NCBI RefSeq assembly: GCF_000337415.1 | Contig: NZ_AOJD01000051.1 | Span: forward strand, 58,236-122,235 | Length of the DNA: 64,000 nt | Origin: Halorubrum tebenquichense DSM 14210 | GTDB taxonomy: Archaea; Halobacteriota; Halobacteria; Halobacteriales; Haloferacaceae | Direction: 5' to 3' | Shown: in pieces, positions 31,169 to 34,326 of the stretch | Numbering within the stretch: the first letter of the stretch is position 1 | Layout: every line of letters starts with the position of its first letter | Program-made: the position numbers and the translations under genes | The notes under the pieces: generated by a model | Database searches by the model: none | What the model saw: the letters and a program-made list of their open reading frames with translations, nothing else | Told to the model about the DNA's origin: nothing

Positions 31169-31894
31169 CTACGGCGTTCGGTTCCGGACCGTTCCGACGA
31201 CGAGGTAGACGACCGGCGTGTCCAGCACGGCGATCGCGAGCTTGAGGAGGTACTGTCCGACGCCGAGCGCGAGGAGGACGCTCCCGGGGAGCGGGGACCC
31301 GACGCCGAGCAGGATCGGGGCGGCGTAGAAGGCGACGCCGACGAAGATCACCGTGTCCAGCGCCTGACTCGTCGCCGTTGACGCGAGGTTGCGGAGCCAC
31401 AGCATGCGCTCGCCGGTGCGGTCGCGGATCGCGTGGAAGACGAACACGTCCCAGTTCTGGCTGACGACGTACGCCAGCAGGCTGCCGACGACGACGTTCG
31501 CCGCCGGTCCGAGCGCGGTCTGGAAGGCGGCCGACACCTCGGGGTCGACCCCGGGCGCTGCGAGCGTCGTCCACACCAGGGCCAGCACGAGGAAGTTCGC
31601 GAGGAACGCCACGTTGACGACGACCTGCGTGGCGCGCCGCCCGTACAGCTCCGCGTAGCAGTCCGACGCGAGGAAGGTCAGCGCGTACGCGAGCGCGGCC
31701 CCCGGCAGCGTGATCTCCGGGCCGACGACCGGCAGCGCGAACGGGAGCGGCAGGGCGAGCACCTTCGCGGCGGTGAGCTGCGAGGTCGCCAGCGCCACCG
31801 TGAACAGCGTGATCAGCCCGACCGCCGCGACCGCCGACCGGTCTAGCGGGTCGGTCCGGAAGGGACTGCTCGCCTCCCCGGCCCGGCTACTCAT
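31169..31894 (-). CDS. Queuosine/archaeosine precursor transporter (YhhQ/VUT family)
   Basis: 241 residues, six membrane segments. Signatures: LTAAKVLALPL near TM1, FLASDCYAELYGRRATQVVVNVAF, and YVVSQNWDVFVFHAIRDRTGERMLWLRNLASTATSQALDTVIF, which together define the COG1738 VUT family. Known members import preQ0/preQ1. In archaea preQ0 feeds archaeosine, so uptake or salvage of preQ0 is the likely role. It overlaps the 3' end of the ribbon-helix-helix gene by eight bases and is co-transcribed with it. Confidence 0.9.
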   Translation of the reverse strand: MSSRAGEASSPFRTDPLDRSAVAAVGLITLFTVALATSQLTAAKVLALPLPFALPVVGPEITLPGAALAYALTFLASDCYAELYGRRATQVVVNVAFLANFLVLALVWTTLAAPGVDPEVSAAFQTALGPAANVVVGSLLAYVVSQNWDVFVFHAIRDRTGERMLWLRNLASTATSQALDTVIFVGVAFYAAPILLGVGSPLPGSVLLALGVGQYLLKLAIAVLDTPVVYLVVGTVRNRTP

Positions 31895-32102
31895 CGGCGT
31901 CCTCCGTCGCCTCGGCCCCCGTCGCCGACGCGTCGTCGTCGAGCCGGTCGTGGCGGGCGTCGATCTCGTCGAGCAGGTCGAGGTTCTTGCGAATCGACGC
32001 GCGCACCGCGTCGCTTCGGTTCACGAACTTCCCGTCGTCGCCGACGTGTTCGTCGAGGTCGGCGAGCAACTCCGCCGGGATCTCGACGCTTATGTTGGGC
32101 AT
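31887..32102 (-). CDS. Ribbon-helix-helix (CopG-like) protein
   Basis: 71 residues. MPNISVEIPAELLADLDEHVGDDGKFVNRSDAVRASIRKNLDLLDEI is a textbook RHH: N-terminal strand, helix A and a helix B with NRSDAVR. An acidic tail follows. It overlaps the transporter gene by eight bases, so it is probably a small regulator or partner in the same transcript. The promoter candidate CGTTCATAGCC lies at about 32126-32136. The biotin operator at 32201-32238 is between this gene and bioY. Confidence 0.85.
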   Translation of the reverse strand: MPNISVEIPAELLADLDEHVGDDGKFVNRSDAVRASIRKNLDLLDEIDARHDRLDDDASATGAEATEDADE

Positions 32103-32200
32103 ACTCGCGTCGTGAACGTCGCGCGGCTATGAACGTTATTATCCGTGGATTATTGGAGTAGCACTAAGGCCGCCGATCCGGGACCAGCACCGACCCGGCC

Positions 32201-32238
32201 GACTCGTAAACCATCACGTTCAAGTGAGTTTACGAGTC
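32201..32238 (+). promoter_or_regulatory. BirA-type biotin operator
   Basis: Perfect 11-bp inverted repeat: arm GACTCGTAAAC at 32201-32211, a 16-base spacer, and arm GTTTACGAGTC at 32228-32238. Its core GTAAAC-N16-GTTTAC fits the BirA box (TTGTAAAC(C)-N14-16-GGTTTACAA) described for bacteria and some archaea. It ends nine bases before the bioY ATG and so overlaps the expected core promoter. A biotin-loaded BirA with a DNA-binding domain would repress bioYMN; the birA gene is not in this window. Confidence 0.8.
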
Positions 32239-32247
32239 CGTTCAGGT

Positions 32248-32829
32248 ATGGCAACGAACACGGAGTCCGTCGACCTCGTCGGCGACGAGGCGGCGACGAA
32301 CCTCGCGCGCGCCGCGCTGTTCGCGGCGCTCGTCGGGGCGTTCGCGTACGTATCGTTCCCGTTCCCGCTGTCGCCCGCACCGGTGACGCTACAGGTGCTC
32401 GGCGTCTTCCTCGCCGGGATCTTCCTCGGGCCGCTGTGGGGCGGCCTCGCGCTCGCCCTCTACCTCCTCGCGGGCGCGCTCGGCGCGCCGGTGTTCGCCG
32501 GCGGCTCCGCCGGGTTCGCGGCGCTCGTCGGAGACAGCGCCGGCTACCTCTGGTCGTACCCGATCGCGGCCGCGCTCGTCGGCGGAATCGTCCACCGCGG
32601 CCTCGCGCTCCGGGACCTCGACGCCGTCCGCCTTCCGACGCTCCTCGCCGCGACGGTCGTCGGCACGCTCGTCATCTACGCGCTCGGCGTCGTCGGACTG
32701 GTCCTCTCGCTTGACCTCGCGCTCGGCGAGGCGGTCTTCCAGGGCGCGGTGGTGTTCCTCCCGGCGGAGGCCGCGAAGATCGCCGCCGCGGTCGGGATCG
32801 TCCGGTCCGACGCGATCACCGCGGCCTGA
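32248..32829 (+). CDS. bioY: Biotin transporter substrate-binding subunit
   Basis: 193 residues, six membrane segments. BioY signature: FPFPLSPAPVTLQVLGVFLAGIFLGPLWGGLALALYLLAGALGAPVFAGG and the downstream GYLWSYPIAAALVGGI. It binds biotin as the S-component of an ECF transporter. ATG at 32248 lies at the end of the BirA-type operator; the in-frame GTG at 32224 sits inside the operator and is less likely. Gene order bioY-ATPase-permease with gaps of four bases and a four-base overlap makes one operon. Confidence 0.95.
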   Translation: MATNTESVDLVGDEAATNLARAALFAALVGAFAYVSFPFPLSPAPVTLQVLGVFLAGIFLGPLWGGLALALYLLAGALGAPVFAGGSAGFAALVGDSAGYLWSYPIAAALVGGIVHRGLALRDLDAVRLPTLLAATVVGTLVIYALGVVGLVLSLDLALGEAVFQGAVVFLPAEAAKIAAAVGIVRSDAITAA

Positions 32830-32833
32830 CGCC

Positions 32834-33616
32834 GTGATCGACGCCGACGGCCTCACCGTGCGGTACGGCGGCGGCCCGAGTGCGGAGGGCGACCCCGACG
32901 CCGGCGTCGTCGCCGTCGACGACGTCTCGCTGTCGCTTCCCGACGGCGAGTTCGTCGCGATCGCGGGCGCGAACGGCTCCGGCAAGACGACGCTCGTGCG
33001 GACGTTCAACGGGCTCGTCGACCCCGACGCCGGCGCGGTCGCGGTCAACGGGACGCCGGTCGCGGACGACGCCCTCGCCGCCCGAACCGCGGTCGGCATG
33101 GTGTTTCAGGACCCCCGGGATCAGATCGTCTCCGCGACCGTCGGCGGCGACGTCGGGTTCGGGCCGGAGAACCTCGGACTCGACCGCGCCGAGATCGACC
33201 GCCGCGTCGATGCCGCGCTCGACGCCGTGAACATGCGAGGCCGCGGGGACGACCGGATCGCGTCGCTGTCGGGCGGCGAGCGCGAGCGCGTCGCGATCGC
33301 GGGCGCGCTGGCGATGGAGCCGGACCACCTCGTGCTCGACGAGCCGTTCACCGGACTCGACGAGCCCGCGCGCCGGTCCGTCGTGGCTCGGCTCCGCGAC
33401 CTCCGCGCCGACGGCGTCGGGGTCGTCGTCGTCACCCACGACCTGCGCGACGTGCTCGCGCTCGCGGACCGCGTCGTCGGCCTCGCGGACGGGCGGGTCG
33501 CCGTCGACGCGCCCCCCGAGCGCGCGGTCGCCGACCTCCCCGGGCTCGACGTGCGGGTGCCGGCCGCCTTCGAGGCGGAGGGCGACTCGTCGTCGACGGG
33601 AACAGATCCGGCGTGA
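32834..33616 (+). CDS. bioM: Biotin ECF transporter ATPase
   Basis: 260 residues. ABC ATPase with Walker A ANGSGKTTL, Q-loop GMVFQDPRDQIVSATVGGDVGFGPENL (the DQI pattern of ECF ATPases), signature LSGGERERVAIAGAL, Walker B HLVLDEPF and H-loop VVVVTHDL. GTG start at 32834, four bases after bioY stops. The 3' end overlaps the next start by four bases (GTGA). Energises biotin uptake with the permease. Confidence 0.93.
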   Translation: MIDADGLTVRYGGGPSAEGDPDAGVVAVDDVSLSLPDGEFVAIAGANGSGKTTLVRTFNGLVDPDAGAVAVNGTPVADDALAARTAVGMVFQDPRDQIVSATVGGDVGFGPENLGLDRAEIDRRVDAALDAVNMRGRGDDRIASLSGGERERVAIAGALAMEPDHLVLDEPFTGLDEPARRSVVARLRDLRADGVGVVVVTHDLRDVLALADRVVGLADGRVAVDAPPERAVADLPGLDVRVPAAFEAEGDSSSTGTDPA

Positions 33617-34326
33617 CCCTCTCGTACGTTCCCGACGGCGCGCTCGCGCACCGGCTCGACCCCCGGTCGAAGCTCCTCGTTCAGGTCGCCTTCGCGGTCG
33701 TCGCGTACGCGTACACCACCCCTCGCGGACTCGCCGTCCTCACGCTCGTGGCGGCCGGCTGCCTCGCGCTCGCCGGGGGCGGGCCGCGGGACCTGTGGGC
33801 GTACCGGTTCGCGCTTCCCTTCCTGCTCGTCGCGCCCCTCGTCGCGGGCGCGACCGTCGGCGACCCCTGGTTCGACGTCGACGACGCGGCCGCGACCGGG
33901 CTGGCGAGCTACCGCGTGCTGTTGATCCTCGTCGTCGCGGCCGCGTACGTCCGGTCGACGCCGGTCCGGGAGTCGCGCGCGGCGGTCCAGCGGACGGTCC
34001 CGGGCAAGCCGGGGCAGTTCCTCGGGGTCGGCGTCGCCCTCGTGTTCCGGTTCCTGCCCCTGCTGAAACGGGACCTGCTGTCCGCGCGCGAGGCGATGCG
34101 GGCTCGGGGCGGCGGCGAGCGACCGGTCCGCGAGCGGATGCGGATCGTCGCGGTCGCGGGAATAAATCGGGCGTTCGGGCGGGCCGACCGCCTCGGGACG
34201 GCGCTCGTCGCCCGGTGTTTCGCGTGGAACCCGACGCTCCCGCGGCTGGCGTTCCGCCGCGTCGACCTCCCGGCGCTCGCGCTCGCGGCCGCGATGCTCG
34301 CGGCCGCGGTCCTGCGGGTCGCGTGA
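33613..34326 (+). CDS. bioN: Biotin ECF transporter permease (EcfT)
   Basis: 237 residues, about six membrane segments. EcfT features: N-terminal LAHRLDPRSKLLVQ, VVFRFLPLLKRDLLSAREAMRARGGGE with the Ala-Arg-Gly motif that contacts the ATPase, and a second coupling motif GTALVARCFAW. The GTG start overlaps the ATPase stop. Ends the bioYMN operon, under the BirA-type operator. Confidence 0.93.
   Translation: MTLSYVPDGALAHRLDPRSKLLVQVAFAVVAYAYTTPRGLAVLTLVAAGCLALAGGGPRDLWAYRFALPFLLVAPLVAGATVGDPWFDVDDAAATGLASYRVLLILVVAAAYVRSTPVRESRAAVQRTVPGKPGQFLGVGVALVFRFLPLLKRDLLSAREAMRARGGGERPVRERMRIVAVAGINRAFGRADRLGTALVARCFAWNPTLPRLAFRRVDLPALALAAAMLAAAVLRVA

Follow-up and report, generated by a model that had tools for sequence, protein, structure and literature searches.

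The bioYMN locus and its upstream repeat

The window, a stretch of 64,000 nucleotides, carries on its plus strand the genes bioY (32248..32829), bioM (32834..33616) and bioN (33613..34326), whose frames almost abut or overlap. BioY (193 aa; PF02632, E 3.3e-34) is the substrate-binding S component of a biotin ECF transporter, BioM is the ECF ATPase (PF00005; GTG start; top NCBIfam match ECF_ATPase_1, under its cut-off) and BioN is a CbiQ-type T component (PF02361, E 1.7e-14). BioY, ATPase and T component thus lie within one operon, for which biotin transport is predicted. Divergent from bioY, at 31169-32102 on the minus strand, is a pair of genes encoding a ribbon-helix-helix (RHH) protein (PF01402; 31887-32102) and a Vut_1/queuosine-precursor-transporter-like protein. 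This pair is found beside bioY in just 10 of 70 named loci, whereas bioN adjoins bioY in 69 of them.

A BirA-type operator with two half-sites, to which no strand is assigned, is predicted at 32201..32238 from its sequence and its conservation in relatives. The 38 bases read GACTCGTAAACCATCACGTTCAAGTGAGTTTACGAGTC, that is GACTCGTAAAC-N16-GTTTACGAGTC, with two perfect 11-bp arms (32201-32211 and 32228-32238), a gap of 16 bp and 9 bp between the end of the box and the ATG of bioY. Direct reading therefore bears out an earlier note on this DNA, which had described a perfect 11-bp inverted repeat with an N16 spacer, and gene calls by Pfam profiles agree with its placing of the box directly upstream of bioYMN in an archaeon. 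The conserved core consists of CGTAAACC at 32205-32212 and AGTTTACG at 32227-32234. Inverted half-sites of the GTAAACC type, 14-16 bp apart, characterise BirA operators, and the box has both this sequence and this spacing, with a biotin gene, bioY, immediately downstream. No second match was found within the 64,000-nt window with up to three mismatches allowed, and 100 dinucleotide shuffles of the window gave no match, for a chance expectation of 0. Perfect 11-bp inverted repeats with a gap of up to 30 bp are, in contrast, not rare, occurring at eight start positions in the window, so that palindromy alone is unconvincing; the case for an operator is one of GTAAAC sequence, location and conservation among relatives taken together.

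The box also appears to coincide with the core promoter. A TATA-like element, TTCAAG, is predicted on the plus strand between the half-sites at 32219..32224 (-29 to -24 from the ATG), in conserved spacer columns and at the position expected for a leaderless promoter, and a BRE probably lies just upstream of it, inside the box. Among the protein-coding transcripts of Hfx. volcanii, 72% are described as leaderless, and TTWT/CGAAA are the proposed haloarchaeal TATA/BRE motifs (PMC4983044).

Distribution of the box and of BirA

Conservation was assessed over 122 haloarchaeal bioY loci, which gave 108 distinct upstream sequences. The pattern CGTMAACC-N14-GGTTKACG is exact in 55 of the 108, present with at most one mismatch in 93 and with at most two in 99; the other nine have more than two mismatches or an altered gap. 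In 81 of the 93 regions with at most one mismatch, the box starts at -43/-44 from the start codon. Most half-site columns hold 1 to 2 bits, with up to 2 bits in the core, and one half-site position alternates between A and C, symmetric GTCAAC...GTTGAC boxes being among the variants. Spacer columns are mostly low, with the exception of TT-AA at spacer positions 14, 15, 17 and 18 (-30 to -26), which is the expected TATA place for a leaderless mRNA and on which the TATA assignment above is based. The overlap of box and core promoter, as proposed in the earlier note, fits both this placing of TT-AA inside the spacer and the haloarchaeal promoter structure set out in PMC4983044. Ten non-haloarchaeal bioY loci (L107-L116) were left out of these counts; they showed no box, the only two-mismatch matches being in L108 and L115.

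Near-boxes precede many of the bioY genes at which the strict pattern is missing. A gap of 13 bp instead of 14 is seen in genus g14 (L198, L285, L286) and in Salinigranum salinum (L100). No box was found upstream of bioY at L056, L191, L203, L213, L214 and L283, although at L191, L213, L214 and L283 the BioY start is unplaced (the alignment begins at query residue 14-25) and the region inspected may be the wrong one. L056, L203 and L214 belong to BirA-bearing genomes without any box at bioY.

Counts over whole genomes point in the same direction. With one mismatch allowed, 72 of 79 genomes carry one to three copies, and the 96 forward matches in the 79 genomes compare with five for the reversed pattern (hand count). 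Two of the extra matches (L194, L195) were rejected as further boxes, as no biotin gene lies downstream and their frequency is in line with the five control matches. Across 145 genomes sampled from the whole order, all of them 90% complete or better, the strict pattern CGTNAACY-N14-RGTTNACG occurs in 109 and its reversed control in none, with 123 boxes in total (hand count); among 75 strict boxes listed, 50 sit 133-215 bp upstream of the BioY domain.

BirA was detected in 138 and BioY in 137 of the 145 genomes, a 48-residue BirA match in G037 not being counted. All seven genomes without BirA (G037, G045, G116, G148, G178, G187, G206) also lack BioY and the box, and this joint absence gives Fisher p = 3.6e-5, with kinship uncorrected. 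Two single cases may also be counted in favour of the BirA-operator reading. In G025, a 99% complete genome of the window's genus (L127/L292) with no detectable BioY and no box, the BirA recognition helix reads SRTAVRRAVE, with W-K at the R-R positions in 13 other BirA aligned beside it; in G048, BioY is present without a box and the BirA-like protein is without such a recognition helix.

The window genome has two matches to the biotin/lipoate ligase family, one of which is a lipoate-ligase-like protein (PF21948). The other is BirA (C61:55184-56170, 329 aa), in which an N-terminal winged-HTH domain (HTH_11, PF08279, residues 4-55, E 2.9e-12) precedes a ligase core and C-terminal domain (PF03099, PF02237 and TIGR00121, above cut-off), the architecture of a group II biotin protein ligase. 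TIGR00122, the repressor domain, also matches, but under its cut-off, and an alignment of the protein to 1bia, the structure of E. coli BirA, spans residues 8-313 (E 2.2e-20). The N-terminal HTH, whose lack the earlier note had taken as grounds for abandoning its reading, is therefore present.

Sites at bioB and direct repeats at bioY

In relatives, a second box is associated with bioB, which was found in 29 of the 79 genomes and was undetected in all 11 of those from the genus Halorubrum, the window genome included. Among 30 bioB loci (L237-L266), a box with at most one mismatch is present in 25, and in 27 the box sits precisely at -20 relative to the start codon, overlying that codon from about -20 to +9. 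A BRE-like CC..AA (-38 to -33) and a TATA-like TTAT (-29 to -26) stand just upstream of it, and its right half-site forms codons 1-4, GTG GTT TAC GAG, read M-V-Y-E. The operator seems to dictate the N-terminal residues of BioB, since in lineages with a GTTGAC half-site the protein starts V-V-D-E (L329) or M-V-D-K (L261), with D replacing the Y given by GTTTAC. On re-inspection of 12 genomes, all 14 inverted sites were either at bioY or at the start of bioB, which in one case is a remnant.

The expectation of the earlier note that the same box would precede other biotin genes thus holds in bioB-bearing relatives and not in the window genome, where a genome-wide pattern search returned no second box besides that at bioY. 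The single copy does not refute the reading, because this genome has no detectable bioB and the relatives that have the gene carry the second box. Two genomes, G102 (L196) and G215 (L328), have a box 54-64 bp ahead of a biotin-carboxylase-like gene that itself has birA downstream. Possible autoregulation is no more than suggested by this, as there are two cases and the box in G102 has one mismatch. The remnant noted above (L312, G105:C65; first seen as L186) is a short piece of bioB with the box over its start and no intact bioB adjoining, and on C34 of the same genome bioB was found as two pieces.

A different arrangement is seen in genus g6 (G039, G113, G121, G151) and in G092, placed in g6 by reading of its sequence. 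In these genomes (L204, L282, L288, L289, L090), the region upstream of bioY reads CGTMAACC-N15-GTAAACCA, a direct repeat whose half-sites, at about -66 and -44, are spaced by exactly 22 bp. The downstream half-site of the inverted box has been lost, and the sequence separating the direct half-sites has diverged. Without mismatch, the direct-repeat pattern is found in 4 of the 145 genomes, always at this bioY position, and one mismatch adds five more matches against two for the reversed control. The HTH of the g6 BirA looks normal, and over bioB an inverted box is retained in three of the five genomes (G113, G151, G092). A tentative reading, whose chances we put a little short of even, is that within the same cell BirA works with operators of two topologies, direct at bioY and inverted at bioB. 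Binding to both would require either a rotation of its DNA-binding heads against the dimer core or the occupation of single half-sites by separate monomers or dimers. Published cases differ on the latter: a single half-site is not bound by B. subtilis BirA (PMC4016012) and can be bound by S. aureus BirA (PMC6391492). No direct-repeat biotin operator of BirA was found in the titles and abstract openings searched.

Proposed control of biotin import and related systems

Comparative evidence strongly supports the reading of the repeat as a BirA-type operator put forward in the earlier note, and we consider it very likely that the repeat is the site at which the bifunctional ligase/repressor BirA would control the importer operon bioYMN; binding, biotin dependence and repression are here deduced from sequence. 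With ample biotin and saturated carrier proteins, BirA would hold biotinyl-5'-AMP and dimerise, and its two winged-HTH domains would bind the two GTAAAC half-sites. With the TATA-like element of the probably leaderless promoter situated between these half-sites, binding of the dimer should keep TBP/TFB off the promoter, and import would be shut down. Because the box overlies the predicted TATA, such blocking of TBP/TFB by biotinyl-AMP-BirA is the most likely mode of action at bioY.

BirA could instead bind the box and activate, or act without needing biotinyl-AMP. BirA of S. aureus is described as binding DNA without ligand too, and as a monomer (PMC6391492); this alternative to repression is nevertheless unlikely, as at bioY the likely TATA has a half-site on either side and the bioB box lies just downstream of the BRE/TATA, both of which favour blocking. 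That some other regulator binds the repeat is very unlikely. The obvious candidate is the RHH protein, whose gene begins on the opposite strand some 100 bp away from the box, and its involvement was rejected in view of its rarity as a neighbour of bioY next to the near-constant presence of bioN, the box being present in most of the named loci; moreover, other genomes have the box again at bioB.

An inverted repeat near a start codon could also act in the mRNA leader, as an RNA hairpin or riboswitch, instead of as a DNA site. This has very little probability, since the half-site letters themselves are conserved and not just their pairing, one genus has its half-sites in direct orientation, and a box at -43/-44 precedes the predicted 5' end of a leaderless transcript; Rfam gave nothing at gathering score in 31900-32500, and an RNA element was rejected. 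The eight perfect inverted repeats in the window might suggest a chance palindrome, a notion with next to no probability that is refuted by the conservation of the box at bioY and across the order, with no control match among the 145 genomes.

The system that the operator reading most closely recalls is that of E. coli. The K-12 bioO is GACTTGTAAACC-N16-GGTTTACAAGTC, from which the left arm here, GACTCGTAAACC, differs at 1 of 12 positions. Shared features are the GTAAACC/GGTTTAC half-sites with flanking GACT/AGTC, an HTH-bearing ligase and a site at a biotin-gene promoter. In contrast to E. coli, where the CC-GG gap is 16, the gap here is 14, the promoter is of the TBP/TFB type, the target is an importer and not biosynthesis, and the site is predicted from sequence. 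The match to the biotin repressor box that had been claimed from the letters alone thus stands for the arms and holds only loosely for the spacing. In B. subtilis, yuiG is a homologue of bioY. BirA of this bacterium is likewise a group II ligase, with three operators, one of them before yuiG, and needs biotin and ATP for binding; its operators differ in sequence and spacing and act at a bacterial promoter (PMC4016012). Natrialba magadii, a haloarchaeal biotin auxotroph without biotin synthesis genes, also has bioY-bioM-bioN, although the accessible part of that report mentions no operator (PMC3403918).

The type of switch is already known. In 2002, Rodionov, Mironov and Gelfand reportedly predicted BirA sites in Bacteria and Archaea with one conserved signal; the presence of the HTH is said to track that of the site, with bioY among the targets, all of which resembles the present case. 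The direct repeat at bioY in one genus is newer, and a description of a haloarchaeal BirA operator was not found in titles and abstract openings. Taken by itself, the window offers nothing out of the ordinary. Haloarchaeal physiology very probably includes, as a standing part, a vitamin repressor of bacterial type that acts on archaeal TATA/BRE promoters, and its small regulon (bioY, bioB) is open to testing in a genetically tractable haloarchaeon. The site covers the TATA at bioY and the start codon at bioB and is a direct repeat in one genus; these differing layouts for one repressor offer a natural comparison of site position and topology at archaeal promoters. Halobacterium is described as having both a BPL and a BirA (PMC3199775). 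Genomes of family f12 (e.g. G176:C1:848297-849088) carry, besides a full-length BirA, a second, HTH-less BirA-like ligase that covers query residues of about 73-328 at 41-44% identity.
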